Position numbers and translations under genes: made by a program
Notes under the pieces: model-generated
Database searches by the model: none
Seen by the model: the letters and a program-made list of their open reading frames with translations, nothing else
Told to the model about the DNA's origin: nothing
Assembly: GCA_021442155.1 (NCBI GenBank)
Contig: CM038221.1
Coordinates: 27,743,906-27,807,905, forward strand
Origin: Cymbidium sinense
Lineage: Eukaryota; Streptophyta; Magnoliopsida; Asparagales; Orchidaceae
Reading direction: 5' to 3'
Length of the DNA: 64,000 nt
Part shown: positions 20,276-57,690 of the stretch, one piece after another
How the letters are laid out: every line of letters begins with the position of its first letter
Position numbering within the stretch: position 1 is the first letter of the stretch

Positions 20276-20286
20276 CTTTCAACCAT
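20272..20286 (-). promoter_or_regulatory. Minimal uORF overlapping the ribokinase start
   Basis: ATGGTTGAAAGATGA encodes four residues. Its stop codon TGA overlaps the main ATG in the tetranucleotide ATGA. It matters only if transcription starts upstream of 20,286, which the sequence cannot show. Confidence 0.35.
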
Positions 20287-26031: not shown

Positions 26032-26067
26032 ACTATGGTATTTATTTTTGATTATGTGTAATGGGGA
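26032..26067. other. 36-bp junction between fold-back element and LTR A
   Basis: ACTATGGTATTTATTTTTGA... No match seen elsewhere. It may be host sequence or more of the LTR A flank. Confidence 0.3.
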
Positions 26068-33800: not shown

Positions 33801-33899
33801 GATCAATTGTATGCACATGGTGGTTTAGAGAGTGGATTGCCAACCTCCCATGTGCTTGAATTTAAGCTTGAGAGGAGTTTGAATTTTAATTTTTGATCA

Positions 33900-35100: not shown

Positions 35101-35344
35101 CATTTGAAAACATATTCAAAGGAAGAATATGAAAGGGTCTTGGGTTTGATTTTTTAGCTAGGTTTTGATTGAGTGATTGAGGTTTGAATTCATATATGAG
35201 CTCATGACTCTAGCGTTGATTGAATCATGAGAAAAAATCAAGGGTTTGGCTTGATTTGAAATTGATTTGGCCAAGTTCAAGATTTTGACTTGAAAGGCTT
35301 AGATTGGGTTTTGAGTTGATTTGAGTTTGATTTGTGGAATTGGT

Positions 35345-36290
35345 TTTGATTGTTTGAATTTATATTTCATTTATATATGTGAATATAAATGAAAATATAA
35401 ATTAATCATGCAAAAATTTCAAGGATTTGAAGTGGTTTAATCATGATTTGGGCTAAGTCCATTAAAAAAGATTTAAAGGACTTAGGAAATTTTGGAGTTT
35501 GGAGTTTGAATTTTTGAATTTGGTTTGATTGATTTATATTTATCTATGCAAATATAAATGAGAATATAAAAGAATTATGAGAAAATGTCATGAATTTGAT
35601 ATGGTTTGATCATGATTTAGGCTAAGTCCATTAATGGAAAATTAATGATTTAGGAAAGATTTTTAAATTGGAGATTTAATTTGAGAACTTGATTTGATTG
35701 ATTTATATTTATATTTCATTTATATATGTGAATATAAATGAGAACATAAATGAGTTATGAGAAAATCTTATGAGTTTGAAATGGTTTGATCATGATTTAG
35801 GCTAAGTCCATTAATAGAAAATTAATGACTTAGGAAAGATTTTTAAATTGGAGATTTAATTTGAAAACTTGATTTGATTGATTTATATTTATATTTCATT
35901 TACATATGTGAATATAAATGAGAATATGAAAGAATTATGAGAAATTCATGAGTTTGAAATGGTTTGATTGATTTTGGCTAAGTCCATTAATAGAAAATTA
36001 AGGACTTAGGAAATTTTAAATTGAGAATTTAATTCTTAGATTTGATTTGATTGTTTTGAATTTATATTTCATTTATATATGTGAATATAAATGATAATAT
36101 AAATGAGTTTTGAGAAAAACCCAAATTTGAATTGATGTAGGTCATGATGACTTTAAGGATAAAAGAAAATTTCATATTGATGAATTTTGAGTTTAATTTG
36201 ATTGGTTTGAATTTGTATTTCATTTATATATGTGAATATAAATGAGAATATAAATGGATTATGAGAAAATGTCAAAGGTTTGAATAGGTT
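35345..36290. repeat. ~175 bp tandem repeat with palindromic core in LTR B
   Basis: Six units with the core TTTATATTTCATTTATAT, ATGT, GAATATAAATGAGAATATAA, which folds on itself. Cores lie near 35,360, 35,540, 35,715, 35,895, 36,065 and 36,215. A spacer (GGCTAAGTCCATTAATAGAA...GACTTAGGAAA) follows each. LTR C has the same six at 55,795-56,720. Confidence 0.9.
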
Positions 36291-36666
36291 TTGATCATGA
36301 TTTTGGTTAAGTCCCTAAAGGAAAGATTAAGGACTTAGACAAAATTTGAACAATTTGAACATAGGAATTTTTGATGGATTTTGATCATTGGTTTCAATCA
36401 TAGATTTCAATCATGGATTTCAGTCATGGAATTGATTTAAGTTTGGAAAAAATCAAATAGAATTGATTTGGAGTTTGACTTGAAAGAAGGAAAATGAGAA
36501 TGGTTTAAGCTAAGGGAAATTTCCACAGGCATGACTATTCAAAACTCTTCTAAGTCTTCTAGGGCTAGATTGAGTGTCCAACAAATGAATATATGTGTCT
36601 TAAGGCTAAAGAAATCTTAAAATCTAAGAGAAGTCCTATGTCTAAGATGGAGGGGTTGAGATCTCA

Positions 36667-36879
36667 TTCTAGAAATGAGAAAAACAATAGATGTGGTGGA
36701 CAAGAATGCTATTGGTGTTGACCTAAATGATCAACAACAGAGAGATCATAAACAAAATAGAGGAGCACTCTTGAAGCAAGTTCAAGTCATCCGATGAGGT
36801 TTGATTTGATCTGAATCTCACTAAGGAGAAGAATGATTTGATTTGTTCTACTAGGGAAAAGGGTTGAATTTATTTTAAA
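36667..36879 (-). other. Segment between 3' UTR array and LTR B
   Basis: A purine-rich tract is expected on the minus strand just before the LTR start, but the sequence next to 36,667 (TTGTTTTTCTCATTTCTAGAA on the minus strand) is not purine-rich. Either the LTR edge is a few bases off or the tract has decayed. Confidence 0.4.
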
Positions 36880-38900
36880 TTTTGTTAAGTTTGAATTTTT
36901 AGATGAACCTTGTTGGTTTGCAATGGGTTGTACTAAATAAGAGCCACGAAGGCTAAGACCTTATTCAAATTTATCAATCCAAAGGGGTAGTATACTAAAC
37001 ACATAGTAGGACTAGCCAACCAAAGGGATGCCTTTTGGTGTACAACAACTGTATTAGGAAGAAAATGTAGTAGACTTACATCCTCCAAGTAAGGACCAGT
37101 TGTTAGGGTAATTTATTAGCATGAAAATAGATTGAACCCAACCTAGGGCTAACTATTGAGTGAATGACATTGGGGGACTTAGATCATCTCAAAGATAGTC
37201 AAGATTAATTTCATTTTTTTAGGTTTATTTATTTTGATTATGATGGATCCCATAGGTTTATGGTGAACTACACTGAGTAGGAGCCATAGAAGCCTAGACC
37301 TAAACTCAGATTTACCAATTCGAGGAGAATAGTCTACCAACCATAAGGTAGAACTATCCAACCAAAGGGGAGCTGCCTTTTAGTATACAATGTTCAAGTC
37401 TTAAAAAGAAAGCACGGGGACTCACATCTTCTAGAAACAAGAAACCACTCAAGTGATTAGTTGCTTCGGGCAACAAATCGAACCCGACCTAAGGCTGACT
37501 ATTGATTGAATGTCATTGGGAGACTTAGATCAACTCAAAGGTAGCAAGATTGATTTCATTTTTAGATTTTTTTGTTTGTATTTTTGTTAGTTTATGATGG
37601 ATCAAACTGAGAAGGAGTTCATAGAAGCATAGACATATCTCAAATTTACTGAACCAAAGGGAGTAGCTTTCTAGCCGATGGGAGAGCTATCTGACCAAAA
37701 GAGTGCCTTTAAATTTGCAATGATCAATTGAAGGGAAGAAAGCTTGGGGACTCACACCTTCCACTGGAAAAGACCACTGCAGTGATCGATTTCTTTGGGC
37801 AACAAATCAAACCCGAACTAGGGCTGCTTGTCGATTAACGATAATCATGCTAAAAAGAATATGTCATAGTCTTACATCTTTCAAAGTAGAATGATTGCCA
37901 GGGTGACATGCTTGTGGAAAAATAGATTGAACTTGACCTAAGAGTGACTACGGAGTACTAAGAGGATTTATCTCCATCGAGGTGGTCGGCAATTCATAGG
38001 GAGTTCTGCAAAGATAAGATGCCTGCTTGGGAGAAGGGGCCCTTTGGGGGCTTGAATTTCTAATACATAAGCGAATTAAATTTTTTTTATTTGTTTGTTT
38101 AATCGTAGACCTTGTTAGCTTGTGAGGGATCAAATTGAGAAGGAGCTTATATCAGACTATCTGATTCTTGAACTAAGGATATCCATTGAACAAATTTTTT
38201 CCAATAGGGTACTAGGAAAGGGGCTATCAATCCAAAGTAACGGGTAGTGTCTAAATGGGGTCACAAGGACTTGTCATCCAAAGAGTGCCACAGGATGGGG
38301 CCTAAGGGCTTAATCCAACACGGATAAGATGACATGGCTAGTCATATATCTAATAGTATTGTCCAACTCAAGGAGAAAGCAAGACTCATCTACCAAGAGT
38401 GGTGTACTCAGAGTTGTTGTCAACATAAGAACATCAACCAACCTAAGGTGCGTGGTTTGCAATCAGCAGGAAGAAAGCTGGGGACTCACATCCTCCATGG
38501 AGCTATTCTTTGGATAGTTATCTTTGGTTGAGGTGTGACCTGGGGAGACTCTTGAGTGAATGCCATTGACTGTAAAATCAATTCAAAAGTAGTCAAGAGG
38601 AAAAGCCTCTGGGGACTTATCCTAAACCTCAAATATACTCGACTAGTTAGAGCATGATGGCTAGTTCAAGAAGAAAGCACGGGGACTCATCTTCTTAAAC
38701 AAAGTCAACATGAGGTAGCTTCTTGGAGGCGGTGAAAACTACCATACTAACACTCATTGGTTTTGCAATGATCAAGTTAGGAAGAAAGCTGAGGACTCAC
38801 ATCCTCAATAAATGACCATTAGGGTGACATACTTGGAGGTAGCATGTAGACCAAAGCTAATGAGTGAGTGCCACAATAGCTCGAGATAAAAGATTTGTGT
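36880..38900. repeat. ~320-350 bp tandem array in the 3' UTR
   Basis: About five to six units. Recurring blocks: CCTTGTTRGYTTG...GATGGATC, ACTGAGAAGGAG, AAGAAAGC(A/T)..GGGGACTCACA, AATCGAACCCGACCTAGGGCT and ATTGAGTGAATGNCATTGGGGGACTTAGATCA. Unit starts lie near 36,895, 37,214, 37,561, 38,105 and 38,565. Spacing is irregular because of deletions. A piece of the same array is at 57,127-57,640. Confidence 0.85.
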
Positions 38901-39294: not shown

Positions 39295-40400
39295 TCATGG
39301 GTAATATTTTTTTAGATAGAGCCCATTAATTGGAAGCATCGGGTGTTCCCCTTTATAATCAATAAGCTGATAAGATCCTCCTTAGTAGGCCTTTTCTATA
39401 ACATAAGGGCCTTGCCAAGTGGGTTCAAACTTCCTCCCATCTTTCGATGGGCAATAATTAATCTCTTTAGGACTAACACAAGTTCTCCTACTCGAAAAGA
39501 CCTAGGGAGGATCAGCTTGTTGTGAGCTTGAATCATTTTATCCTTGTACAACTCAAGGTTTTGGCACGTCCGTAGGTGACTTTTCTCCAAACCTTAAAGC
39601 TCTTCTAACTACAACTTTCCATTCTTCTCTATAGTGATCTTGTTACCCAATGCTATCCTTAGTGATGGGAGTTGAACTTCTAAGGGAAGAATGACTTCAG
39701 ACCTATACACTAAGGAAAATGGGGTAGATTGAGTTGGAGTTTAATATGAGGTGTGGTAGGCCCACAAAGCTTCAACCAACAGCTCATTCCACTATCATTT
39801 GTTGTCATCAAGAGTTTAATATCTGAATGAGAGTTTTGTTGAATGCTTATGCTAAGCCATTTGCTCTGGGTAGTAGATGGTGGAGTTTTTCCAATCTATA
39901 CATGTCTTTTGGCGAAGTTGTTGATCTTCATGCATTTGAAAGCAGTATAATTATTGGATATAATTCATCAAGGCATCCTGAACATATATACGATATGGTT
40001 CCTTAAAAATTGAAGTACATGGTGAGCTATGACCTCTCTGAGTGGGATGGCTTCTGCCCACTTGTAAAAGTAACGATAGCTGTTAAGATGAACCGATGCC
40101 CCTTCAAAGAAGGAGGATCGATTGGACCTACAATGTCAGTTCCCCAACACTCAAATGGCCATGAAGCCAATGTAGGGTGTAGAATGTTGGGTGGTTGGTG
40201 GAGGACCAGACCTTGCACTTGACACTAATGGCATCTCCTAGCTACATCCATGCAATCTGTGATCATAGAAGGCTAGTAGTATCCAAGTCTTTTGATCTTC
40301 ATCTTCATCTTTGGACCGGATTGATGAGCTCCATATAGACCTGAATGCACCTCGGTTATAATGCCATGGGCTTCATGTTTTTATCTAAATAAGTAACATT
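39295..40400 (-). pseudogene. Integrase domain of the Tat element
   Basis: Read leftwards. First, zinc-finger remains near 40,320-40,220: GYY-like, then CMDVARRCH and a following CQ, the CC half of HHCC. Next comes the catalytic core at 40,200-40,030 (WPFECWGTDIVGPIDPPS, with the first Asp of the DDE triad in WGTDIVG). The C-terminal part at 39,590-39,400 has MIQAHNKLILPRSFRVGELVL. The terminal HPMLPINGLYLKKYYP-stop lies at 39,345-39,295. A stop and frame changes after FTSGQK separate the core from the end, so the enzyme is inactive. No chromodomain is seen, as expected for Tat. Confidence 0.88.
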
Positions 40401-40639
40401 TGGTCAAAGGATCGATGGTATAGGGTGCCATCAACAAGAGCATAGGAGAGAGCTCTCTGCTCACCTGATGGGCTTGTGATTTCTCTTGAGGTAGTTTATC
40501 GGTGTTCAAGTAATCTATGAATGGTTGCCTCCAATCCTCCTTGTCCATTTTGGCAATGACAACCTCCCTTCAAGAAAGTCTCGATGAGTTTTGAATCAAT
40601 AAGGGATATGACTTATCTATTTTGGACCCTTATTGAAAT

Positions 40640-41160
40640 GGACTCATCTTCCGGACATGCAACTCTCTTTGGCCATCTCTTCGTTCTCTGGAAACCTTGT
40701 AGATGGTGACTTGAGAATCGGTCAACGACTTCATGGTATACTTGTAGTAATGATGAAGCTTGGGTTTGAGAACTGGTAGGACCCGATGTCGGTTGATGAA
40801 GCGAGAATCCCCAAAGATGTTGATGCTCTTGACACGATAGTGATGGCTAACTCCAAACTTGGAATAAAGCCTCATACTCAACTTTGTATTTGGTGTATGG
40901 GTTGGAAAGATAGTATGAGAATCTCATCACATTGTGGTTTGGAGTTAGAAGAATTATTTTTACCCTTTTCAGGGAAGATAGATGGTGCTTCACCTTTAAA
41001 AGAAGCAACACCATCAAAATACTCCCATTCGGTGATTCTTGCCTCCCTAAGTTCATGATTTGTTCATCGGAGATCATCACTAAGCAATAGAAGTGGGTGC
41101 TACTAAGAAATCGCAGTGCTTGTCCTTTTACCCGCGAGAGGGAATGTGATATCAAACTGA
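40640..41160 (-). pseudogene. Second (archaeal-type) RNase H domain
   Basis: Between RNase H and integrase there is a second RNase H-like stretch. The motifs are ITPNHNVMRFSYYLSNP-like, then VEYEALFQVWS at about 40,860, then after a frame change GVSHHYRVKSINIFGDSR and VLKPKLHHYYKYTMKSL at about 40,840-40,720. The E of VEYEAL and the D of FGDSR are two of the expected catalytic acids. This extra domain is characteristic of Tat-clade elements and is the main reason for the clade call. Confidence 0.82.
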
Positions 41161-41213
41161 GAGAATCATGGACCAATGAGCAAATGTCCAAAAGCATTAT
41201 GTCATGAGAGATA

Positions 41214-41609
41214 CTACAGTGGATTAGTTCTTGAGATCAAGTTCACCTTATGAGAAAGCATATAGTGTTGTAGCTTCTGAGATGCAAAGATCAAAGCTAG
41301 GCAATGTTTCTCAATAGGTGGATACTTTACTTCAGCAGGGATCAGATGATGACTGAGGTAGTAGAGTGCATTTTCCTTCCCATCATCGTTGGCTTGGGAA
41401 AATAGAGCCCCGAGAGAGTTGTCCAATGCAACAGTGTAAAGGTTGAGTGGCATTTCCAAGATAGGGGCTGCTAGAATTGGCGGCTTCACCAAGTACTCTT
41501 TGATGTCTTTGAAAGTATGCTGACACTTGTCATCCCACTTGAACTTGGCATCCTTTTTGATAATGCTAATAATGGCTTGCATCTCTTTGATAGGTTTGAG
41601 ATAAAGCAT
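41214..41609 (-). pseudogene. RNase H domain (first) of the Tat element
   Basis: Longest clean piece of pol, 131 codons. FKWDDKCQHTFKDIKEYL is the RT/RNase H junction; PPILAAP, YTVALDNSLGALFSQ (first catalytic Asp expected at TVALD), YYLSHHLIPAE, and EKHCLALIFASQKLQHYM follow. The end after SHKVNLISRTNPL runs into a stop. Confidence 0.88.
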
Positions 41610-42612
41610 CTTAGATATGCCAACCGTCCTTGAAGGGATCTGAGTTGAGTTAAACTCTTAGGAGGTGATATTTCTAAGATAGCTTTGATCTTTTCAAGAT
41701 CTATTTTTATTCCCGTGTCAAATAACCCGACTACTCAATGCACACTTGAGATTCATTTTGGTTATATTGTCTTAGTTCAAAACTACTCTCAAGTCAGAGA
41801 TGGTCTTCCTTTTTAAACTTTTGACTACTAGATCATCAATGTATACTCAACGATGATGGATGAGTTGTTGAAGATCGAGTCATGGCGTTGGTATGTAGCA
41901 CCGGCATTTTAAGGAAAGGCATGACCCTATAACGAAGATTACGTCGGGGTTCATAAAATAGTGTTTCTTTTATCTTGAGACATCTTGATTTGGTTATAGC
42001 GGATGACCCATCCATGAAAAGAAACTGCATGAGATGAGGCAATGTCCACTCTATAGGAAGAAACTCATCCTTAGGACATGTCTTGTTTAAGTCTCTAAAA
42101 TTGATGCAAATGTGAATTTAGCCATTTTTCTTCTTAATTGGGATGACACTAGCTAACCCAGTAGGATATTTTTCTTCCCTGATGAAACCAACATCGATCG
42201 TTTCTTGACTTGAAATGACTGTTGTTGTTCAATTGCATCTAGGAGCTTGCTTAATAAGGGTAATGTAAGGATCTATTGCTAGCTTGTGGACTACAATGTT
42301 AGGAGATAATCTAGGCATTTCTTCATAACTCCATGCAAAGTAGTATTTAAACTCAGTCAATAGCCTAACTAAGTCATTAGTTTCTTCTTCGTACAATAAC
42401 GAATGGATGTATGTCGGGCGAGGATTTTCTTCTGTCCTGAGGTTGATTTCTTTAAGCTTGTCGATTGTTGAATGAATCTCCTCTTCAAATTTTGGTGGTG
42501 CCTCTTTGACTTGGAGATCATCTGGATCATCTAAAGTTTCTAAACACACATTCTCATAAGAGTTGGGGATGTGTGAGAAGAAACTATCAGACTCCAAATG
42601 GTTGGTAAGCAA
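41610..42612 (-). pseudogene. Reverse transcriptase of the Tat element
   Basis: The N-terminal linker and start lie at 42,612-42,229 (FAWSYEEMPRLSPNIVVHKL, then DPYITLIKQAPR). The palm follows with YNQIKM at about 41,985 and YRVMPF at about 41,925. The catalytic VYIDDLVV is on the minus strand at 41,831-41,849, with YIDD at 41,843-41,832. Frames shift at least three times between these motifs (for example inside the segment 41,836-42,042). The catalytic YIDD itself is intact. Confidence 0.88.
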
Positions 42613-43379
42613 TAATCTTCATCATCGATGGGACCCACCATCGAATCTAGTCTTGATTGTGTACCTCCTTTATGTTGTTCCATAGCTTTTGAAGTATTCT
42701 ATTACTTGGACCATGTGTGAAGAACTAAACCTTTATGTATAAGATTTTGAACACAAGGTGAGTAAAAGTCAAAAGATAATTCCATTAATTCTTTAAAAGT
42801 ATCTTTTTCAAGCTATACATCAACTTCAGGGCTTGAGGAGGATGATCCTAGAAAGAACTTCTTCTGTTTGATGTCATTGGAAGACTTAAGGACTTCCTTA
42901 ACTACTAAATCTTCAACTTTATGATATGTAACTGAGGTAAACTAAGGTTCCCAATAGCGCCCATAAACCATATTGAATACTTTGCTTTGCTTGGAGGCAC
43001 GGTCTTCATCTTTGTTTGGATCAAAAGTAAACTCTAATGGAAAGGGGTTGGCGGTATACTAATCACATTAGACTCATCCCTCGAGCTGATTCCAAATGTG
43101 AATAGTAGGGTACTCTATGAACTGGAACACACCTCTTTGGCCAACTAGGGGTCTCCACCTCTGAATTGCCTATTTCCTTCTACCTCTACTTGGTGGAGGT
43201 TGAGCCATCTACCCACATGTCCATATGATGGAATGAACTATGGGTGGAATGTGATATCGATCTATTTCTTCAATTCCCTTTCTTGTTCACTTGGACTTTT
43301 CTTTTCTTTTCATTTTCTTTTATCTTTTCTTTTGCTTCATTTTCTTTTCTTTTGGTTTTGCATTTGAATTTTGTCCAAG

Positions 43380-43795
43380 TTCATGAAAGGGTGTTTTGAG
43401 GAAGATAGGTCACATCCTCATAAATCTCAACCTCTCTAACTGAAAATGGCTTTTCATCTCCATTGACACGGTATTCAATTCCATCTTTTTTTAAACTTGA
43501 TGCACTGATGAAGGGAGGATGGAATGATCTTGTTCTGATGTATCCAAGGCCTACCAAGCAAAGCAGTGAATGAAGTATTCAAATCAATGATGTAGAACTT
43601 GGCTTGATCTTCCAGTCCTATCTCCAAAACACTATAGAACCTAAAGCCTCACCTTGATCATTGAATCCTCTCAACATCATCTATCTCCTTGGAGTGTAGA
43701 TGATGTCAATCTTCAAATAGGCAAGGGTCTTTAGACTCATAATGTTCGATGCACAATCCATGAGAACCAGAGTCAAACCATTCCATGTCAGTGAT
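43380..43795 (-). pseudogene. Aspartic protease region of the Tat element
   Basis: On the minus strand: LVLMDCASNIMSL, LRGFND, then ALLGRPWIHQNKIIPSSLHQ and IKFKKDGIEY. GRPWIH and IPSSLHQ are standard for plant gypsy proteases of this group. The active site expected as D-x-G-S reads D-C-A-S here, so the conserved glycine is lost. A stop falls between the two halves. Confidence 0.8.
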
Positions 43796-44199
43796 GTATG
43801 GGGACGTTGTGCTCCAAGTCCCCAGAAGAAGGTCTTCATCTGAAGGTGATCCCTTGGGCTTCTTTTGCATAATGTGCTTCCTCACCTATAGTGAGCTAAG
43901 CATATTTAGATCAAGGAGGGTGATTAGTGATTCCCTCATCTCTTTGGATAAGACAAGGGCATCATATATGCTTAGCTTAGACTTTCTTAGATGAGAAAGG
44001 ATGTTATAGTCCACCTTTGTCTTCCACAAGCATATCCAAGGGTGGAGCATCTTGTGGAAGGGCTTCTCGATCTTGTACCAATGATTGTTTCCTCATCTTG
44101 AGGTGCTACCTAGGAGGTAGAACCTTACTGAGGTTGACTTTGGTAATCTCTTGAGGCAAGGTGGTGGAAGCTACATGCACTTAGGCTCACCTACGCTTC

Positions 44200-47100
44200 T
44201 ATGGGACTCTCAAATTGGATGATTCCTATCTCAAGAGGTGAACCCATAGTGAGTTGGAAAGTCCAACTCTGAATCATAAAGAGGAAGATCAAAATTGTTA
44301 TAGTTAATTAGACTTGAAGAGTTATCGTTAATAATAAAAGAAGATAACTCATCAGAAGAAACATGGATGTAATTCAAACTAGCTTTATTCTTCAATTTTT
44401 TGGAATTTTCTTGGGGGTACAAAGTAGAAGTCAAGTAGTGAGTGGAGTAAGATTTGATGCCCTTATCCATACAAGAGTTCTACTAGTAGAAGAAATATAA
44501 GAGCTAGCTGAAATGGAAGAAGTCACCGTGTGGAAACTGCAACTGAAGGATGGAGGCTGGGACATGTGATGCTAAAGGGCTATCTTCACACATTATATTC
44601 TTTCTTGAGCTCCCACTTTCTAGAGTTAGCGGCTTGCAAACCTTCCTTGGTGTTGGAGGTTTGAGTGACTCAAACAGGAAAGCTTCTTGATCTTTTGAAT
44701 TATTTTCTTAGAGGTTTTAGACAAAGAAATGTCCCAACCTTCTTTGGTTTTGGTAGGATCACATGTATCCCAAGGATTACCCTAATGCGGAAGGTTGTTC
44801 CATAAGGTATTCCTTTGGGATAACTATAACCATCTTGAAATTGTGTTCAAGCAGTCCTTAATGTGAAGTAATCCTCCAAAATGTGGCTTAGCATATGGTG
44901 GTAAGGCAAAAAGTTTGGATCTTGACTTTTGCCTACTTCCTCCGGTCTCTTGGCTCGGGTAGCTAAAAAATCAGGTTTCTTTAACAGATTCTTAAATATT
45001 TTCTTGATTACCTCCATCTTGAAAGAATAAGGTTTATTTAACTTATGTAAAAGAGTAGGTGGAGCATAGCTACACGGCGGTGTATGCACTCTGCTGGTGG
45101 TATGGCGGTGGTGGCTGGAGCCATGGAGATTAGGTGGAGGCCGATATGGTTTCTGATGGTGGCAAGGAGGTGGAGGCTAGGTCATGGTCTCTGTGATCTC
45201 TAGTGCTACTTCCCTGTCATCACTCTCTTGCTCATGTTTCTTTCATAAACCTTTTTGGGATTTGCACTGATCTTGAAAAGGCAATTATTTGGTCTCTTGT
45301 AGACTAGCTTCTCAAATATCTTGATAGTGAAGCCCTTAAGCATGAAGAAGGTGACGCCATGGATATTCTTCAAGAGAATCTCAATGGCATGTATTCAAAT
45401 ATTTCATCACTTCATACTGGTTATGCCATCGAGAATATAATCAACAAGTGACTCAGTCTTTGTGTGCTACAATGAGATCACAATAACCCTTTCGCTCCAC
45501 AAATCTCTTGATGAAGAGTTGCTCTAACTTAGAAATATCTTTCTCTTGGGCAGTTCAAGATACCAATCAAAAGCAATACCCTCTTGACAAAAGTCAAAAG
45601 AGTAAAGCATTGCCACCACCTTATTGCAATAAGGCCTTGAAGTGCTATATGCTCAGGTTTCCCCATCAAAGCTTTTGAAGGAAGGACAAACCCTTGGGAT
45701 ATTGGATAACATCAAATTCCTTTAGGTAGGGTCTACCCTTTGGAAACCGATGATCCTCCCAGGCTTGAGCCAAAGCTTCCTTCTTGCTCAACCATGGATT
45801 TTAAATCTTTTCATGTATGGAGGTACTTTCCACTACCTTTCCTACTATGATAGCTACCTTGCTCAATGGAGGTAGAGTCTTGGTTGGGTCCAAGACATGC
45901 ACTAACTGTAACTAACATTATTTATAAGGATGAACTGGAGGGCTTATTTTAAGCACGACACTTCGCTAAAGTCCTATACTGGTGCCATTCTATTAATTTG
46001 CTCATCCTTCTACCTTAACTAAAGTCTGAGGTGTTGGGCTGATTTTGTTGTATCCTCTTGATCAACCTCATCACATTCCATGACCTATTATTCCCTAAGA
46101 AGAGATCCTCTATCAACCATGCATACTCTAACTGAATCCCTCATGAAGTCATCTTCATTGGGATTAAAGCTGACTCTCTTCATCAAACCAGGCATACCCC
46201 AAGATCCTTCTTCTCCATAAAATAGTGTGCAACTATCTCATCTACAGAATGATCTAACTTAGCAGGTACAAATAGTTTAGGCTGATCGGTGTGATCGCTA
46301 TCATGCACTGAGAGGCACCCTCATGGGAGTCAATCTATCTGTACTCACTAGATGAATATTCACTACTAATAGAGGGGTAACAATCCTAGGATGTTCCTAC
46401 CACCTGTTGAACTGGTCATCTAGAATATCTATAAATTCACCATCTCCACATGGTTGTATGGGTGGAGTTGAAGGAATGACCATGATGCTTGGGGTCCACT
46501 CCTTCATAGGTAGAAGGTTGAGAGGAGAGCTCGACCTATAATGGGTGGTGTAGGAGTAGGATCCCTTGGCATAGCGGATCACCGGGGTACATTTTCCCTG
46601 ATGTAGCCTTCATGGCCTTAGATGGAATGGGAGATGTCGCCTGCTGGCGATGGGAGCGAGGGGTGAGTGGGGTGGAGACACCACCGACTCTCTTGCACAG
46701 GGCTCTCCATGGTGGGGTCCCTGAGAAAGATACTTTATTATGGGGCCGGGTAGCGAGCTAAAATCAATCAGCGAGCGACGACGGCTTGAACCTCCATCAC
46801 TCTGCTAGTAACATGTGTATGGGCCTCACGGGCTCTCCGATGAATCACTCCCTATGGGGGATAATAGATCATCAAACCATGTTCAGACTTGCGTATGCTC
46901 CCTCCCTAGCGTAGAGATCGAGAGGCCGATGACCTCATACTCCTAGAAACTGCTGGATGTAAGTGCACCACTAGAGGTGGTGATGAACGGACATCCTCTA
47001 TGTCATCAGAGAGATGAAATTGGTTTCTTAACCAGTGGTGAAGTGATGATGGGAGACTCATCAATGGCTTATCTAGCCGCCTCTAGCTCCCTAGCTATAT

Positions 47101-47370
47101 GAGTGTGGAACCATTTGATCATACGATTCTTGTTCTATCGGTGCATGGGATGGGAGGAGTCTGAGCTAGACCCATACTCAAATGTGGGGAGGCAAGCCAC
47201 TGGGGAGCCTTACCCTTGGAGGGTACAGATGGTAGGTGCTAGCACTTCCGGGGCAACATGGAACTTAGGATGACTGGCTGGTAGCTACTTATAATCAAGT
47301 CAATGCGCCATAGCTTTCCTCTTTGAGGAGACATCATCGGAAGGTAAGTCTATCGATGATGACCGCCCCG
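44200..47370 (-). pseudogene. gag region of the Tat element
   Basis: Capsid-like motifs at about 45,810-45,480 on the minus strand: KKEALAQAWEDHRFPKGRPY, EFDVIQYPKG, SFDFCQEGIAFDW, then KISKLEQLFIKRFVERKGY. The F-x-W and LEQLFIKRF pieces match the retrotransposon gag fold. Several stops and frame changes interrupt it. Flanking pieces at 44,231-44,470, 44,847-45,089 and 46,397-46,582 are open but carry no motif I can name. Confidence 0.75.
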
Positions 47371-47703
47371 TCACCTTCTTCTCTTGGTGAGGGAATGCCC
47401 ACAAGTGATCTTGGCCCTCAAATCCAGAAAGTGAATCAAGTGGGTATGGTCTAGATGGGGAAGTCGACTAAAAAGATCCATACCATGGGGAAGGTGAAGA
47501 AAAACCGAGAACTCATCATTGACGTAAAACTGAACTGCTTTCATATAAAAGAATGCAATGAGAAATGAACTTGTATCAATTTTCTCCATAGATTTTGAAT
47601 TTTGAATTTGAAAATTTGAACCCATCCAACAACTTGGAAGTGTTAAGTGGGGTTCAAATGATTTAAGAAGATTGATTGAAAGAGAATTTGAATATGAATC
47701 CAA
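47371..47703 (-). CDS. Open 5' piece of the gag region, function unknown
   Basis: 110 codons, the most upstream frame of the internal region. It begins inside the leader hairpin array, so its first ~30 residues are translated from two hairpins. The later part (FYMKAVQFYVNDEF, LHLPHGMDLFSRLPHLDH) has no motif I recognise. It could be the start of gag or the extra upstream ORF known in some Tat elements. Low confidence that it is expressed. Confidence 0.35.
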   Translation of the reverse strand: MDSYSNSLSINLLKSFEPHLTLPSCWMGSNFQIQNSKSMEKIDTSSFLIAFFYMKAVQFYVNDEFSVFLHLPHGMDLFSRLPHLDHTHLIHFLDLRAKITCGHSLTKRRR

Positions 47704-49464
47704 ACTTCAACAAATTTAGGTATGTTGAAATATGGATTCAAAATTTGATTGATGCTTCCATAGGTTCATTGTGTTTTTGAATTTGAATTTTTGATTTTAA
47801 GGACCCTTTTCTTTAACAAATTTAAGTATGTTAAAGTAAGGGTCAACAAGATTTTGTTTTTGTTTGATTATTTTGGAGTTTCACTTACTTAACAAATTTA
47901 GGTATGCTAAGTGAAGTAAAAGTGATTGTTTCTTTTTGTAAATTTATTTTGATTTTGAAAAACTTGGAATTCTCAATTAGCAAATTTAAGTATGCTAAGT
48001 GAAGAATCAAGTATTTTGTTTGATTTTTGAAAATAGGATTCTTAGCAAATTTAGGTATGCTAAGAAAATCCTAAGTGTTTCATTTTGATTTTTGAGTGAT
48101 TGAAAGTGGAGGTTCTTTAGCAATTTGATTATACTAAAGATGAAAAATAATGTTTATGAAATGGAAATTTCATAGCAAATTTGAGTATGCTAAATGAATT
48201 TTCAAATGGTGTGATTAAAATTTTGATTTCATTTTTGGTTTTGAAAATGGAAACTTCTCCTTAGCAAATTTGGTATGCTAAGGGAGAAGTTCCAAAATGT
48301 GTTTGAAAATTTTGGTTTTGACTTTGGAAACTCCACTTAGTAAATTTGGGTATGCTAAATGAAGTTCCAAAATATGTTTTGAAAAATGTTTGATTTTGGA
48401 TTTGGAAACTTTACTTAGCAATTTTGAGTATGCTAAATGAAGTTCCAAATATTTTTTTTGAAAATTTTTTGATTTTGAATTTGGAAACTTTATTTAACAA
48501 ATTTGGGTATTTAAATGAAGTTTCGAATGTATTTGAAATTTTTTGAAATATGATTGTTGATTTTGAATTTTGGATTTGGAAACTTCACTTAGCAAATTTG
48601 ATTATGCTAAATGAAGTTCCAAATATTTTGAAATTTTGATTATGATTTTGATTTTGATTTGGAGAAACTTCACTTACAAATTTGGGTATGTTAAATGAAG
48701 TTCCAAATGTGTGTTTAAATTTTTTTTGAAATATGATTGTTGATTTTGAATTTTGAATTTGGAAACTTCACTTAGCAAATTTGATTATGCTAAATGAAGT
48801 TCCAAATATGTGTTTGAATTTTTTTTGAAATATATTTTTTGAAGTTTTAATTTTTTGAAGTTTTAATTTTTTGAATGGAGATCAATCTTATTTTTGAAAT
48901 ATGAAATTTTTGTGTGTGATTGTTGCTTTTTTTGAAAGAGAATTCCAACTTAAAACATATGAGATATGTTTTGGTGGGATTTCCTAAATGATATTTTATT
49001 TTTAGTTGGAATGAAATCTTCATTTAATAAATTTGAGTATATTAAATGAAGGTGTTCATGTATCCTTTTTGAAAATTTTAATTTTTTTTTATAGATAAAC
49101 TCTCCATTCAATAAGTGTGAGTGTATTGAAATAGAAAGATTCATGTGTGTTTTTTAAAACTTTATGATTATGATTGTGTTTTTTTTTGGAAAGGATGATT
49201 ATTTTATTTTGAAAATGAAATCTTCATCAAAGTGAATTGAAAGAAGATATTCATTTGTGCTTTTGGAAAATGTTATTAGTTTATTTTTAAAAATCCCTAC
49301 ATGTAACAATTATGAGAAATGTTAAATGAGGGTGATAGAATTTTGTAAAAAATATTTTATTAAGTGCATTTTTGAAAAGGTGCTTTAGAAAAGCAAAGTT
49401 CTTTATGGAAGATTTATTATTTTAGGATGAACCTTTCTTTATCATGAAAACGATAAAGAGGAAG
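47614..49464. repeat. Tandem array of ~20 covarying hairpins in the element leader
   Basis: Each unit is arm, ~10-nt loop, arm. The inner stem is YTTARCA...TGYTAAR and the loop is AATTTGRGTA or close. Outer stems vary between units but the two arms stay complementary. Examples: TGAATCCAAACTTCAACA (47,695) with TGTTGAAATATGGATTCA (47,723); GACCCTTTTCTTTAACA (47,802) with TGTTAAAGTAAGGGTC (47,829); TAGGATTCTTAGCA (48,034) with TGCTAAGAAAATCCTA (48,058); AACTTCTCCTTAGCA (48,252) with TGCTAAGGGAGAAGTT (48,276); ATGAAATCTTCATTTAATA (49,011) with TATTAAATGAAGGTGTTCAT (49,040). Spacers are T/A-rich (TTTTGAAATTTTGATTTTG). Confidence 0.9.
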
Positions 49465-49782
49465 TCTTAAAGATGTTTTTTTAATTTAGATCTTTTCATT
49501 TTACCCATTGGAGAAAGGGGGTTTTAAGACCAACAAGGGGTCCTAAAACCTAAAGATGTTGGCTAACTCAACTCAAGAATGAAATGAGCTAATGAAAAGA
49601 AGGATAGTCTTGGATTCATAGTAAAAAACTATCGATACTCAAAGACAATGATCATTTACCAAAGATGGAGAGGAACCATCCCGTGGAGTCTAGAAAATCG
49701 TGGTGAAAATTTCTATAGGGGTCGAGTTCAAATCTTGTTGGTGAGAAATGAAGAGGACTCAATTATAAATTCATCTTTAGGA
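49465..49782. other. Leader between hairpin array and LTR C
   Basis: The primer-binding site should lie beside 49,782, but no sequence there matches a tRNA 3' end I can name. GGGGTCGAGTTCAAATC at 49,718-49,734 looks like a tRNA T-arm, about 50-65 bp from the LTR edge. It is not a proven site. Confidence 0.35.
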
Positions 49783-52700
49783 TGCCATGTAGATCCAGAT
49801 GTACTTATTGTGATCGTATCATCAAGGAAATAGTGTACTATCTTGAAAGAAGTCACTACCCTTTAATGGACCTAATCACCTCAATAAGGACTCTAAGGAT
49901 GGGGTGCATATGTACCAGATTCTTCCCTACTTTACATGAAAAGTAAAGAGGGTTTATTTTAAATCGGGTTCATTAAGTTCTCTGGGGCAAGCCCCATAGT
50001 TAATTACATCCTAAGGATGGGATCCTTAGGAAAACTCTCGATTAAAGTAAATGATCATTATCTTTGAAGATTTCAATAGGAAGGACTATCAATTGATTTT
50101 TTTTATTTTTGAAGATCAAACAGGATTGATCAAAATAGGGTGTTATTATCGAAGCCAAAATAAAAATAAGTAGGAGATGCCCTGATGCTAGAAACCTAGT
50201 GAGCATCTCAAACTATCTATAGTTGGGCTTTACATTTTGAAATTGATTTAGTTTATTTGAGTTGCATTTTTTAGAAATTTAGGACTTAAGATTCCTTAAC
50301 AAGATTAAGGAAATGCCTAAGAGGAATTAATTATTTTATGGCCCACAAAGGGAGAAGTAACAACCCTAAATCTAGGGAGCTTGGAGAGGAAGCACAACCT
50401 AAATCTAAGGAAAATGGGTAATTGGTTTGCCTCCACAAGAGAGGACAAACCACAACTTGGACTTACAACCGGGGTGGCCACCAACTAACTCCTCCTATGA
50501 TTTTAAATACATGTAGGCAAGTCTTTATGCTTAGATAGCTAGGCTATTATTTATTTAGAAAGAGACTAAGTCCTTAAACTCACTCCTAAAGAGACTAGAT
50601 CATGTAAAGGGACATGCTTCAAATGACCTAAATCTAATGCAATTCAAATTTCATTTTATTTTCATTTTGGACAATTATTTTGACTTCGCTAATGATTCAT
50701 GAGAAATTGATTATTGGCCAAAATTGAGAAGAGGAGGTGAGTTTCCACCACTCTCAAAGGTCAAGCCAAGTTTCTCAAGGTGGAAGCCCTCCAATCAAGA
50801 GTGAAATAAGATGCATTTGTGCATGATATTATAAAAGAAATGCTCATCCTAAGGGGTTGCTAATTCTTTTATCTTGATTTTAAACCTAAGTTAATTTTAT
50901 TTGAGTTGTTAAGTTGGGTAAAAGATTTATTTTTTCCTAAAGAGCCTAATCCACATCCAAGCCATACATAAAGCGAAGAAACTAGGAAAATCATGCCACT
51001 TAATGCAAAAGCTAAACAAATCATCAATCAATTTATAAAGCTAATCACAAAAGAATAAAAGGCATTGTGGTGCACCACCACACAAACAAAATATCAAATA
51101 TGGGTAGTGAGCTCTACCCTTATACAACCAATTACAAATGAATTAAATTACAATTAAGCAAGGAATTCATTATTATGGGGTCTTCAAGCTTTATTCTTCT
51201 TTCTTCTTCTTTTCTTCTTTCTTCTTTCTTCTTTATTCTTTGGTTCCTTCTTTTGGATGGTTGGAGGTAGATGCTCCAAGGCTTCACATGGTGCATAAGA
51301 TAGGATCTTATGACCAATGTCATCTAATCCCCATAACAATCATTCCAAAATCCTAATTGCATAAATTTTATATGAAAAGAAAAGTGAAAAAAATCTAACT
51401 AACACGCAAAATAAAGGTTAGCTAAAATAAACCACAAATCCCAAGCATGTATATTGGACTTATCACCCCACATATGGGTGACTAAGTCCACTATGGATTA
51501 TGCTTAGGGGTATAAAGCACACAAAAGCATTTATATTTTATTTATGATAGCCCTTAAGCACAATCCCTGAAAAGAATAGTTAGACTAAGAATCTACCATT
51601 CATTCTATGAGCATACACCCTAACATCCAGTCTAAAACATAGATCATAAAATAAAATAAACATCAAACCATGCACTGACTAACCTAAAGAAGTGGTGACT
51701 TAGGCTAATGTGCGTGCTTTGAAGGTTTATGTGGTATGCTTAGCTAGGACTTTGGATTCAAATTTTCTATGTTTAAAGAACATGTTCAACTTAGAGGAGG
51801 ATTTCATTTAAGTTGTTTAAGTTTTTTGGGTTGATTTTATTTTATGTTTTGATTTGGTTTAAGTGGATACAATTAATTACTAAGTTATGAAGAGAGGAAA
51901 AGAGAAATGGCCTTCTCTTTCCTTCCCTAACCAAAGTAATTTCTTAGGTAAATTCACATTTTAGTTTCATTTAGGTGAATGTTTTGATTAAATATTTTAA
52001 TCAATCCTAAGTTTAGATAAACTCTAAACAAACCTATTCAAAAAAAGGCATTTAAGATTAAATAAAATGAATCAAAATTCACATAACACACATTACTTCA
52101 TTTCTTTCCCAACATATATAACATGCATATGGATGGACCCTAAGCATATCTATACATGCAAATGAGTATTTAACACACTTTATGATGCATGCTAAGTAAT
52201 CCATTTAAGAAAATTTAGAAGTTGAATATGCATGATTTTCTTAAGTAGAAAGGTTTTCTTATCCAAATTTTCACATACATGATAAAAGTAAGAAAGGCAT
52301 ATAAGTGAGTACAAGTCATTGTTAACAAAGTAATGAAATCTTGGATAAAACTTAAATACCATTGTTAACATAATGAAATCTTATAAGTCATTTCATATTT
52401 AAAATTTGAATATAAAATTTATGAATGCATGAAATAAAATACAACTTAACATTTTGGGGAATAGATGAGTAATGAAATCTTTTAAATGAACTCACTTTTA
52501 CTTAAATCCCAAGACATATGGAATAAGAAAGTTTAAAATAAATGAGTGAATTTCAAAAGTGATTTTGTTTAGTTTGAAGTTTGATTTAATTTTGAAAATG
52601 AAATAGTTTCATTCAAATTTCATGTGTTTGATATTTTTATTTTAATTTTTAAAAATTAAAATTTTATTTTGATTAGGTTTATGAATTAAATACATTAAAA

Positions 52701-54359
52701 CACACCATTAGAAGAATTAATTTAATAATTATGAGTAATGAGATGACATAAAACACTTAAATTTAAATTTATAAAGATAATAAGAAAAAAGGCTTTAATG
52801 TAATTTGGCTCAGATTAAAGTTAATTGAAAAGTGAGAGATTTGTTAAGTAATTTAAATACCATTTCACATGTGAATTGGGTTTTAATTTGTTAATTAATT
52901 TATTAAACATTATTCTACAAAATTAATTAAGTTAGAACTTTTTAGAATTTTAGAAATTGATTAAGGATAATTAATGAATTAACCCTTAATTAAGAGGAAT
53001 TAAGAGAAGGGGGTTTAGGGAATAGCTAAAAATGCCCCAAAATTATAAATTTACTTACTAGGGACCTTAATCAACCCTAATCATGGGTTAAAATCACTAA
53101 TTTAAATTATGCTTAATTACATAAGAAGGGGTAAGAAAAATCATATGCAATTATTATAATCAAACCTTCAATAAATTTAAGAAAATTAGGGGAGGTAATT
53201 GTCCCTAAAACTTACCCAAGAAATTTGGGATCATCATAAAATCAAAATAAAATTTTAATAAAACCCAATTAGAGAAAAAACATAATTTAAAACTCATCAA
53301 AATTAATTTTAAAATGTTAGGTTTAATTATCTTTCCATAGAATTTTATTTCACATTTTTTAAATTTCTAGAAGAGTTATGAATTTTGAAGATCTCTATTA
53401 ATTAGGAATTAATTAAAGCATTTTAATTAATCCAAACTAATCTCTCATGCGTGACATGGTGGTGGTGGTCGCGCTTTACATGTCATGGAGGGGTACTTAA
53501 ATCATCCCAAATGGTGAGCGTGGTGCTTTAATCCTGATCTCAAGATGGCGGATCTCCCCACATTTTAAATGGATAAAGATTTCAAAACATGTGAATAATC
53601 TTAGTCCATCTAAAATGCATGGATGGCTAAGATCATCAAGTTCTTCCCTTGATCAAGACCATCCATGATCAGGGAAGATCAAGCGATCCAGAATGGAATC
53701 ACTCAACCCACACCATCTAAAAGAGCGGCAAATCCAATGTCAAAATCAATGGGGTGAAAATTTCTTTCACAAAGCTCCACACCACATTGAGTTTAATGGT
53801 CAAAATCCCATACCTCAGGTGATCAGCTTCGATTCCTTGGAGCTTCATCTGGTTGAGAGAAGCCTTCTTGAGTTTGAGCACTTGAGGTTGAGTGGATCAA
53901 TGGTGGACCAACTCCTCCTTGCTTGAGCTTTGATCCAATTGATCCTCCTTTTAAAACTTGGGAACTCAACTTGGGTGAGGGTCACTTGGATTGTGCTTGC
54001 AAAGATTGGAAAGAAATGAGTGTGGAAGAAGTTGGCAATTCAATTGGCTATTTTCCTTGTTGAAGAAATGGGAGAATGGAATGAGCTCTAGGATGCTTTT
54101 ATCACTCTCATGGTCCTAGGTTCCTTAGCACTTGATGAATTAGGGAATTATGCATTTGAGTTTGTTTGGGGAGTATATCTCCCCTTGAAGGATCGAGATC
54201 AATGGACATGCCATTTTGATCCAATTGATCATATGGGGTTGTTTGATCAGTTAGAGTGTGCACATGGTTGGTTTGAGCCAAGGTGGATTCAACCTCCCAT
54301 GTGAATTGAAATTGAGAGGAGTTTGAATTTTCAATTTTGACCATGGTGGGTTTGGTCTA

Positions 54360-55480
54360 GGGACCAAATGGGCTAACCAAACCCATTGGGTTGGGTGCAC
54401 CACTCTCCCCTAGGTCCCCTTGAGCTTTTAGGAAAGCCTCAAGTGAATGTGAAGAGGGTATGACCAAATTACCCATGGGTTAAGCCAAAATTTGTTCTAT
54501 GGCCTAGAGGTAGGATGGTCATTTCACTATTTTTTCACTTTGGAGATGTTGGGTATGTGGAGAAACTAGGTTTGGCCAAGTTTCATTGATTTGGAATTCA
54601 TTTGATAGGGTTTGGCTCATGTTGACCCATTTAGGTCAAAATGGGTCAACTTGGGTCAAGTTGACCAATAGGTCAAATTGGGTCAAACCAAGGGTTGGGT
54701 CAAGTTCATATGACCATTTGAAATGTTTTGGTGGCTTTGGTTTGATTCAATTTGGTATATTTTTGGTTTTGGCTCATATGACTTCATTTAGGTCAAATGG
54801 GTCAAGTTGACCTATTTGACCCATTTGACCTATTTGAGTAGGTCAAGGTAGGTTTAGGTTGGTTAGTCATATGAGTGGATTGGTATCTTTGTTTCCAATC
54901 AATTTGGGTTAAGTTCAATTTTGGCTCAACATGACCCCTTTAGGTCATGTTGGGTCTAAGGTCAATTGGGCTAGGTTGGGTCTAGTTGGCCAATTGAGGC
55001 TTTGGTCAAGTTCCACAAGTGATTTGGAATGGACTTGACCCATTGGTTTCAATCAATTTGGCTTAGATCAAGTTTTGACACATTTTGACCCTTTAGGTCA
55101 AAATGGGTCAACTTTAGTCAAGTGAATTGGGCTAGGTTAGGCTCAAATGTTGGCTTGGTCAAGTTCAAACATAGTCATGAGTGAACTTAGATCAATGGTT
55201 TCAATCAATTTGGCCTATGGTGGAATTTGGCTATGTTAGGTTTCATTTTTTTGGTTAAGTGTTGACTTGGTCAACCCTTAGGTTTGACTTGGTTTGACCC
55301 AATTTGATTGATTGATCATCCCATGATGATTGTTGATCATGATGAGGATATATGAGTTTGGTTCAATCCAATTTGGTTAGGATCAAAAATTTGGCTCATA
55401 AGTACTTTAGGTCACTTTGGGTCAAGTGAGCCTAAGTGGGTCAAATGGCTTGGTCAAAACTTGATTTGAAGTTAGTTGAT
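54360..55480. repeat. GGTCAA/TTGACC-dense segment of LTR C
   Basis: Partner of 33,900-35,100, highly similar. The pattern TTGACCCATTTAGGTCAAA.TGGGTCAA is repeated with small changes. Confidence 0.85.
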
Positions 55481-55794
55481 CTTGTATATGGACTTATGAT
55501 TTGAAATATAAATCAATAAGTGGTTTGAAGTCAAATGGGTTTAGATCCATTTGACAATTTCATATTCAAAGGAAGAATATGATAGGAATTTAGGTTTGAT
55601 TTTTGAACTGGGTTTTGATTGAGTGATTGAGGTTTGGATCATATATGATTGTAGTGTTGATTGAATCATGAGAGAAAATCAAGGATTTGGCTTGATTTGA
55701 AATTGATTTGGCTAAGTTCAAGATTTTAACTTGAAAAGCTTAGATTGGATTTTAAGTTGATTTGAGTTTGATTTGTGGAATTGGTTTTGATTGT

Positions 55795-56720
55795 TTGAAT
55801 TTATATTTTGTTTATATATGTGAATATAAATGAAAATATAAATTGATCATGGGAAAATTTCAATGATTTGAAGTGGTTTAATCATGATTTGGGATAAGTC
55901 CATGAAGAAGGATTTAAAGGACTTAGGAAATTTTTGAGTTTGGAGTTTGAATTTTTGAATTTGGTTTGATTGATTTATATTCATATTTTATTTATATATG
56001 CGAATGTAAATGAGAATATAAAATAATTGTGAGAAAATCCCATGAAGTTGATATGGTTTGATCATGATTTAGCCTAAGTCCATTAATGGAAAATTAATGA
56101 TTTAGGAAAGATTTTTAAATTGAGATTTAATTTGAGTTGATTTGATTGATTTATATTTATATTTCATTTATATATGTGAATATAAATGAGAACATAAATG
56201 AGTTATGAGAAAATCTTATGAGTTTGAAATGGTTTGATCATGATTTAGGCTAAGTCCATTAACGAAAAATTAATGACTTTGGAAATATTTTTAAATTGAA
56301 GATTTAATTTAAGAACTTGATTTGATTTATTTATATTTATATTTCATTTATATATGTGAATATAAATGAGAATATAAAAGAATTATGAGAAAATCTCATG
56401 AGATTGAATGGTTTAGAGTTGATTTTGGCTAAGTCCGTTAATAGAAAATTAAGGACTTAAATTTAAATTGGAGAATTTAATTTTGATTTGATTTGATATT
56501 TTATTTATATTTCATTTATATGTGAATATAAATGAGAATATAAATGAGTTTTGAGAAAATCCGGATTTGAATTGATGTAGATCATGATGAGGCTAAGTCT
56601 TTAAGGGAGAACTTAAAGAACTTAAGAAAAATTCATGAATTGATTTGAAATTTTGAGTTCAGTTTGATTGACTTGAATTTATATGTCACTTATATATGTG
56701 AATATAAATGAGAATATAAA
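55795..56720. repeat. ~175 bp tandem repeat with palindromic core in LTR C
   Basis: Six units matching those of LTR B in number and order, so the array existed before the B-C element inserted. Confidence 0.88.
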
Positions 56721-57126
56721 TGGATTATGAGAAAATCTCAAAGGTTTGGATAGGTTTTGATCATGATTTTGGTTAAGTCCCTAAAGGCAAGATTAAGGAC
56801 TTAGGCAAAATTTTGAACTTAGAAATTTTTGATGGATTTTGATTGTGGGTTTCAATCATAGATTTCAATAATGGATTTGAGTCATGGAATTGATTTGAGC
56901 TTAGAAAAAATCAAACAGAATTGATTTGGAGTTTGACTTAAAAGAAGAAAAGTGAGGAATGGTTTAAGGGGGTAGAAATTTCAACACCCCTAAGGCATGA
57001 CCTATTCCTAACTCTAAGTCTTCTAGATTAGCTGGTGTCCACCTAATCACTAGATGTGTCTTAAGACTAAGGAACTCTTAAAGTCTAAGAGAAGTCCTAT
57101 GTCTAAGATGGAGGGTTGAGAGCTCA

Positions 57127-57688
57127 TTCTAAAAAAAGACCAACTAAGGGGTTTTCAGTAAAATGATCAAGTCAAGGAGAAAGCTTGACTTACATATTCA
57201 TAAAGAAGGAACCAATGATCATGAGTTAAAGAAATTGAAGGACCTAAAGCATGCAACCCGAGAGAATGCATGATAGAATTATATCTTCAAAGCAAGGATC
57301 AATGTGACTTGTTTACAATAACACCTAGTGAGATGCATGAGGACTTATGTCAACTCGAAAGTAGTCAAGAGATTCTTATAAGGAGCTTTGCTGACACTGC
57401 CCTAAAGATAGAATGCCTGCTTGGGAAAAGTTATCGCTGGGGGGTTTTTCCTCTTAATCCATAAGTGAAAAATATATATATTTGTTTTGTTTATATGTTT
57501 GCATAGACCTTGTTGATGTGCGACATACCACACTGAGAAGGAGCTTATATCAACTTAGTCATATCTCGGACTATTATACCAAGGAGAATCATATCCTAAG
57601 ATAGATTCTCCAACCACTTGGCTAGAAACAGGAAATAAGATTTTGTAGTGTCTTAATTTATTTTGGATGATATGTGTGTGTGTGTGTG
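57127..57688 (-). mobile_element. 3' UTR remnant of a second, internally deleted element
   Basis: It carries the array words AATGATCAAGTCAAGGAGAAAGC, then TGCCTGCTTGGGA.AAG, CATAGACCTTGTTGATG and ACTGAGAAGGAGCTTATATCA. These match 38,015-38,155 closely. It sits between LTR C and LTR D, with gag and pol gone. A (GT)n run (57,673-57,690) lies at the deletion junction with D. Confidence 0.8.
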
Positions 57689-57690
57689 TG
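57673..57690. repeat. (GT)n microsatellite
   Basis: Nine GT units at the edge of LTR D. Confidence 0.95.

Follow-up and report, generated by a model that had tools for sequence, protein, structure and literature searches.

A tandem array of constant-loop hairpins with covarying stems in the 5′ leader of an orchid Tat-like retrotransposon

For maize Sireviruses, a palindrome-rich, hairpin-forming region of the LTRs and the small RNAs from it were reportedly treated by Bousios in 2016. In the available part of PMC10760457 this region appears as a cluster of local RNA hairpins within a single non-coding portion of a plant LTR element; neither a constant loop nor covariation is described there, and maize Ty3/RLG elements are said to show no obvious peak of such hairpin structure. 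Sirevirus RM boxes, according to the accessible text of PMC2829016, are dyad-symmetric motifs of 10–20 bp present in 8–32 copies per element in the non-coding DNA of Ty1/copia LTR retrotransposons of plants. They lie in the LTR and the pre-ENV linker, and 12 of 13 elements have a CGG-CCG core in the arms around a variable spacer (PMC2829016, same portion). Within the Tat lineage, hypervariable tandem repeats of Tat/Ogre elements occupy non-coding internal DNA; according to the sections available of PMC7004042, they sit in the 3′ UTR, differ in both sequence and length, and figure there as a source of satellites rather than as RNA structure. In ssRNA viruses such as STNV and MS2, a genomic RNA contains numerous stem-loops that serve as packaging signals; they have a loop motif in common but differing stems, are spread through the genome and bind coat or core protein in assays (PMC3662417, partial text). 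HBV packaging signals are grouped with them as a multi-stem-loop likeness (PMC8677749). Hairpin maintenance by template switching would allow both arms to change with the loop kept, and is a mutation mechanism rather than a function (PMC8794818, partial text).

The array described here, from the orchid Cymbidium sinense, resembles each of these systems in part. Like RM boxes it is a set of dyad-symmetric motifs in non-coding DNA of a plant LTR retrotransposon, but the orchid element is Ty3/gypsy and Tat-like rather than Ty1/copia, the array lies in the 5′ leader, and its arms are AT-rich and variable around a constant loop, with a median stem of 17 pairs (768 units, 48 copies). With the Tat/Ogre repeats it shares lineage, tandem arrangement and non-coding internal location, but it lies beside the 5′ LTR, ahead of gag-pol and not downstream of it. 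The closest relatives in kind are the palindromes of Sireviruses and the 3′ UTR repeats of Tat elements, each of which lacks a defining feature. We take the multiple packaging signals of ssRNA viruses as the nearest working analogy (PMC3662417, as far as its available text goes): the orchid array likewise has multiple stem-loops that share a loop motif and are conserved as structures, although it is tandem and belongs to a retrotransposon leader. A literature search, mostly of open-access titles and abstracts, found among the papers listed none on a constant-loop covarying hairpin array in an LTR-element leader. The initial annotation knew of no named system like it; none was listed for such an array in that search, but relatives in kind exist in the Sirevirus LTR palindrome arrays and Tat tandem repeats.

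The window, the whole stretch of 64,000 nucleotides that was analyzed, contains a degenerate Ty3/gypsy element with pol read on the minus strand (Table 1). About 1.7 kb of its 5′ LTR (51354–53052) is unmatched in the other LTR. One of 13 distinct gag-pol pieces tested, the RNase H piece, passes the Pfam cut-off; the remainder we take to be gag-pol from its motifs. The array sits on the minus strand between the 5′ LTR and these remains, and therefore in the 5′ leader. Within the window the first RNase H alone scores. A second was seen in L071, one of three sister pol stretches fetched, which was placed by its distance from array copy L031: RT_RNaseH and RT_RNaseH_2 pieces are followed there directly by an RVT_3 piece (E 1.2e-10). 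The other two stretches, L069 and L070, contained no frame of 100 aa. A second RNase H (aRH) beside the RT-linked one is a mark of Tat elements; in angiosperm Ogre/Retand its place is between RH and INT (PMC6317226, partial text). The element is assigned to Tat because L071 shows two such domains in succession, and the location first proposed for the array, the 5′ leader of a Tat element, was borne out. At the level of the Ogre or Retand subclade, comparison of the junctions singled out no PBS.

Table 1. Positions of the hairpin array, its units and the surrounding parts of the element in the window
Feature	Position	Strand	Evidence
Whole hairpin array, 5′ leader of element	47614..49470	minus	fold, covariation, covariance model
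u0, divergent loop	47614..47659	minus	z −2.8; covariance model
u1	47693..47742	minus	fold z, covariance model
u2	47800..47846	minus	fold z, covariance model
u3	47876..47923	minus	fold z, covariance model
u4	47963..48011	minus	fold z, covariance model
u5	48028..48075	minus	fold z, covariance model
u6, 9-nt loop	48104..48150	minus	fold z, covariance model
u7	48158..48207	minus	fold z, covariance model
u8, 9-nt loop, both arms lengthened	48247..48295	minus	fold z, covariance model
u9	48322..48372	minus	fold z, covariance model
u10	48400..48450	minus	fold z, covariance model
u11	48480..48530	minus	fold z, covariance model
u12	48574..48624	minus	fold z, covariance model
u13	48657..48708	minus	fold z, covariance model
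u14	48757..48807	minus	fold z, covariance model
u15, without constant loop	48937..48986	minus	z −3.2
u16	49011..49058	minus	fold z, covariance model
u17, diverged loop (three mismatches)	49095..49144	minus	fold z, covariance model
u18, without constant loop	49211..49258	minus	z −4.0
u19, divergent loop	49293..49334	minus	fold z, covariance model
u21, without constant loop	49428..49470	minus	z −3.0
5′ LTR	49845..57690, outer bounds approximate	minus	83–85% to 30942–36675 in main blocks
3′ LTR	30942..38154, bounds approximate	minus	83–85% identity to 5′ LTR in main blocks
RNase H fragment of pol	41214..41657	minus	PF17919 E 2.7e-24; PF17917 E 9.2e-17
Degenerate gag-pol region, short stop-to-stop pieces	40030..47700	minus	RNase H piece by Pfam
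Second, different hairpin array in 5′ LTR, ~180-bp repeats	55588..56845	minus	fold z, repeats
Second hairpin array, 3′ LTR copy	35140..36350	minus	fold z, repeats

The LTRs carry a different hairpin array with two hairpin kinds per ~180-bp repeat (loops such as TCACAT and TTTCC); it is also G-poor, with a mean z of about −3 on the sense strand. At 34000–35000, 54000–55000 and 63000–64000, stretches rich in GGTCAA/TTGACC repeats fold with low energy whichever strand is taken (mean z −1.4 to −2.6), and further tandem repeats at 2146–3428, 11079–11587 and 36932–37826 gave no clear hairpin signal. Related LTR stretches flank the element on both sides (26065–30941 and 57698–64000; 77–79% mutual identity in matched blocks), which suggests that it may be nested into, or have recombined with, a sister element. 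Pieces of a plant ribokinase (pfkB) gene lie on the minus strand at 12298–12747, judged by eye, and 19625–20278 (PF00294 E 8.9e-22), with best hits of 81–82% to Dendrobium and Phalaenopsis, which points to an orchid host.

About 20 hairpins had been reported initially; 21 were counted on the minus strand, the sense strand of the element, and the six arm pairs first listed are present on the plus strand. On the minus strand, folding unit by unit, as the initial annotation had proposed, placed each of the 21 below its 200 dinucleotide shuffles (p ≤0.025; mean z −4.8). The mean z on the plus strand was −3.3, and minus was the more extreme in 20 of the 21. Among 1-kb bins of the window (110-nt windows, 25 shuffles each), mean fold z was lowest at 48–49 kb (−3.5 minus, −1.8 plus). 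A covariance model built from 18 units recovered these units, as expected by construction, and no other site on the window's minus strand at E up to 1; the plus strand gave weak matches on the same units plus one at 28449. Rfam returned no match at gathering score in the window.

The loop was originally given in antisense as AATTTGRGTA; in sense RNA it is the reverse complement, TA(C/A)YYAAATT (TAMYYAAATT). Its constancy stood in part: in 13 of 21 hairpins the 10-nt loop is present with no more than one mismatch, u6 and u8 show a 9-nt form, and the loop is absent from u0, u15, u17, u18, u19 and u21. Exact TACYYAAATT occurs ten times in the window, always in the array on the minus strand and never on the plus strand. 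On these counts, base-pairing between the loop and a second site of the element's sense RNA was rejected; the candidate core for loop-loop kissing, AAATTT, is AT-only. Stems are real but longer than the 8–10 pairs first quoted. Lengths of 20, 21 and 22 pairs were found in 74, 20 and 9 of 768 units, a sharp drop past 20 pairs, just short of the length of Dicer products.

Searching the 3.53-Gb assembly, in which the window falls on contig 8, for the array yielded 63 places, 40 of 10,855 candidates having been scored; they are 66–86% identical (own locus aside). We assembled 48 copies, comprising the window's own (L001), 27 chosen by similarity and 20 by one 22-mer; L001–L028 are among the best array matches, and L029–L048 were picked by the 22-mer on contig C1. 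The array, whose presence in other leaders had been suggested as a check, was found in 48 of 48 with 9–21 loop units each (unit filters differ slightly), though all copies were array-selected and family members without it could not have been drawn. Median unit spacing was 77–105 nt. The LTR array was sought 4.5–9.5 kb upstream in 20 of the 27 similarity-chosen copies: 18 scored above 800 bits and two weaker ones 688 and 748, and 16 of the 18 had the expected orientation, with L052 and L059 opposite. We therefore regard the array as a regular component of the element, at least among array-chosen copies.

Genome-wide counts of a 22-nt core were 35,815 for the version with G-C at pair 3, 18,679 for that with A-T and 4,017 for the one-sided G.T; reversed controls gave 0 each. 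In the 48 copies the pair-3 context (n = 210) comprised 95 G-C, 94 A-T, 14 G.T, 6 A.C and 1 T.T. One scan of viral contigs with the core pattern found no relatives beyond this genome. A scan by structure alone of 28 copies and their flanks gave 562 hairpins (9/10 Watson-Crick), with a 10-nt loop in 155, a 9-nt loop in 9 and an 11-nt loop in 4; columns 1, 2 and 6–10 of the 155 were constant at 92–97%. We therefore rejected the idea that searching by the loop had created its constancy, since this structure-only scan finds the same loop in most of the 155.

Covariation of the stems was compared with a parsimony-on-tree null in which substitutions were simulated on the tree of 18 units (14 pairs; alignment hand-edited in a few rows). 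Paired cells numbered 206 of 248 against 156.6 (sd 11.6) and double-changed cells 35 against 10.2 (sd 3.9), and 0 of 2000 simulations reached either value, which upholds the claim that the stems covary. By counting on the unedited alignment, 76.6% of cells were paired versus 65.9% after shuffling, with 30 double-changed cells versus 14.1 (0/500 in both cases); two-side-changed pairs were reached by 20 of 500 shuffles and further pair types by 41 of 500. Among slid controls on this alignment, −1 came near the true pairing on double-changed cells (27 vs 30) and the others gave 7–16. Chance folding or AT-rich noise was ruled out by the shuffle z scores and the tree-null covariation. Ordinary tandem duplication of one palindromic unit, too recent for its pairing to have decayed, would account for units 8–14, which were duplicated together with their linkers, and tandem repeats are known in Tat elements (PMC7004042, partial text). 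Pairing and double changes nonetheless exceed a null that already allows shared descent, and the contrast between internal and terminal branches given below also speaks against this origin, which we regard as highly improbable.

On trees of units, terminal branches approximate mostly post-insertion decay and internal branches the lineages still copying; this is an approximation, as units also duplicate within arrays. Units with 4 of the 8 inner pairs formed were kept (428 of 481 in the 28-copy set; 768 in the 48 copies, against 872 unfiltered). In the 768-unit set, two-sided changes ending paired made up 43 of 277 changes starting from a pair on internal branches and 25 of 540 on terminal ones (OR 3.8, Fisher p 3.3e-7). 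The second sample alone (20 copies) gave 31 of 154 and 15 of 250 (p 3.5e-5), and the OR ranged from 2.8 to 5.4 in six runs combining three unit filters with trees built with and without arm columns. Slid pairings showed no contrast in two-sided change (p at least 0.19 in the 768-unit set and at least 0.12 across samples). Without the pairing filter, slid two-sided change reached p 0.008–0.08 in 5 of 8 slid runs (OR 1.9–2.3; true 2.8–3.8). The one-sided and weaker "stays paired" measure also responded to sliding, with p 1e-4 to 0.03 in 5 of 6 runs at +1 and p 0.008 in the second sample at +2; in the 428-unit analysis the internal stay-paired share at +2 (0.57) exceeded that of true pairs (0.48).

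The ratio of internal to terminal substitutions per column (428 units) was 0.77–0.86 in flanks, 0.74–0.78 in outer arms, 0.53–0.57 in inner arms and 0.35 in the loop, the last partly protected because units were found by a loop with at most one mismatch. Units on longer terminal branches were less well paired (rho −0.32, 428 units). These patterns support the view that stem pairing is probably selected in copying lineages and decays after insertion, in line with the initial annotation's proposal that the fold is kept by selection.

The same annotation had alternatively proposed renewal by copying from arm to arm. Under this explanation, the stems are renewed by template switching during reverse transcription or replication, and selection for function plays little or no part; such switching can create and mend stems with the loop untouched (PMC8794818, partial text). 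Both arms of u8 were lengthened together, and the best hairpins of the 21 units are Watson-Crick at 314 of 343 ungapped stem positions, as arm copying would leave them. Few two-sided changes followed insertion, however: between the two LTRs of the window's insertion, the predicted stems of the LTR stretch differ by 41 one-sided and 3 two-sided changes, or 33 and 3 with stems predicted on the other copy. This comparison concerns the LTR stretch, not the leader, and includes stems outside the LTR's array; it gave no sign of mending of arms by the host genome after insertion. Two-sided changes overall were no commoner than in slid pairs (internal 35 vs 20–38; terminal 37 vs 20–41), enrichment being confined to those that end paired, and arm copying leaves the constant loop, the slow inner arms, the G-poor linkers and the purifying pattern unexplained. 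We consider it unlikely as the main explanation. Template switching at the step of reverse transcription could supply double changes.

Several features bear on the strand of action. Sense linkers are G-poor (G 2812 and C 8863 of 48,093 bases, 48 copies). In whole-array folds of 12 of the 48 copies, Watson-Crick unit pairs had a mean probability of 0.67 in sense versus 0.39 in antisense, and sense was higher in 12/12. Wobble pairs gave a null or mixed outcome, without strand preference in the leader, unit types or internal branches. Counts of GU and AC were 13 (as GT) and 5 in the window's leader alone (p 0.10), 15 and 17 among majority states of 20 unit types, and 43 and 50 as changes from Watson-Crick pairs on internal branches (768 units). 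Pair 7 alone shows a strong sense-wobble excess (289 GU, 15 AC), while pairs 2, 9 and 12 lean the opposite way (15/43, 39/117 and 72/160). We infer that the array acts as RNA in the sense orientation and make no firmer claim because the direct wobble test fails. The lack of strand preference in these tests would equally suit a function at the DNA level, with repeated sites for a transcription or chromatin protein and palindromy incidental or serving cruciform extrusion, and the repeated palindromic motifs of Sirevirus LTRs have been compared with transcription-factor sites (PMC2829016, available part). The arrangement there is the reverse, constant arms and a variable spacer against the constant loop and variable arms of the orchid array, and the linkers here are strand-asymmetric in G; we give a DNA-level function little credence.

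These hairpin beads on weakly structured linkers resemble the structured leaders of plant pararetroviruses. That likeness and the position of the array before gag would fit hairpins that influence how the long leader is translated or spliced, by shunting, internal entry or as a scanning brake. Upstream ATGs are not depleted, however, with 23 against 24.4 expected in sense over 47614–49790, so that AUG avoidance was not seen in this interval, and some 10–21 one-loop units would exceed what a shunt needs. A role of this kind appears rather improbable. Still less probable is a template or decoy for small RNAs, with the array feeding or absorbing Dicer products or siRNAs as proposed for the palindromic LTR regions of maize Sireviruses: palindrome clusters in Sireviruses attract small RNAs (as told in the available text of PMC10760457), but the orchid stems rarely exceed 20 pairs (at least 21 in 5% of 768), which is short for Dicer products of 21–24 nt.

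The explanation we favor, tentatively and at somewhat less than an even chance, is that the array is a selected multi-site cis-acting RNA element of the orchid Tat retrotransposon, most likely a platform for protein binding or packaging. The genomic RNA would display one loop, TAMYYAAATT, on some 10–20 separate stem-loops, with stem letters largely free and pairing itself under selection, and G-poor linkers would keep adjacent hairpins from mispairing. One protein could read loop and stem multivalently, and RNA with many sites would thereby be captured. The most plausible candidate reader would be Gag encoded by the element itself, or else a host factor with a part in export, packaging or assembly. 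A constant loop on stems that change but stay paired would be the look of a protein-read hairpin, and the many copies at a median spacing of 77–105 nt suggest avidity; the protein partner and the packaging role are our guess, by analogy with the viral signals. Retroviral nucleocapsid zinc knuckles prefer unpaired G. The loop has no fixed G, so the usual zinc-knuckle contact of Gag is not obvious, and this counts against the favored explanation. A more specific form of it, possible but distinctly less probable, is a multivalent RNA handle in which 10–20 copies of one loop, with free stems and G-poor spacers, are read cooperatively by a single protein to pick out the element's RNA.

To our knowledge, little is settled about the way in which LTR retrotransposons of plants tag their RNA for packaging. 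A fixed loop on covarying stems offers a concrete candidate packaging signal with many natural variants in one genome, from whose sequences recognition rules could be read and then tested. The many dead copies provide a neutral control, making this an unusually clean case for weighing selection against arm copying as the source of compensatory change. If true, the RNA handle would be a natural device resembling an MS2 array in an LTR retroelement, with units numbering in the tens of thousands in a single orchid genome.
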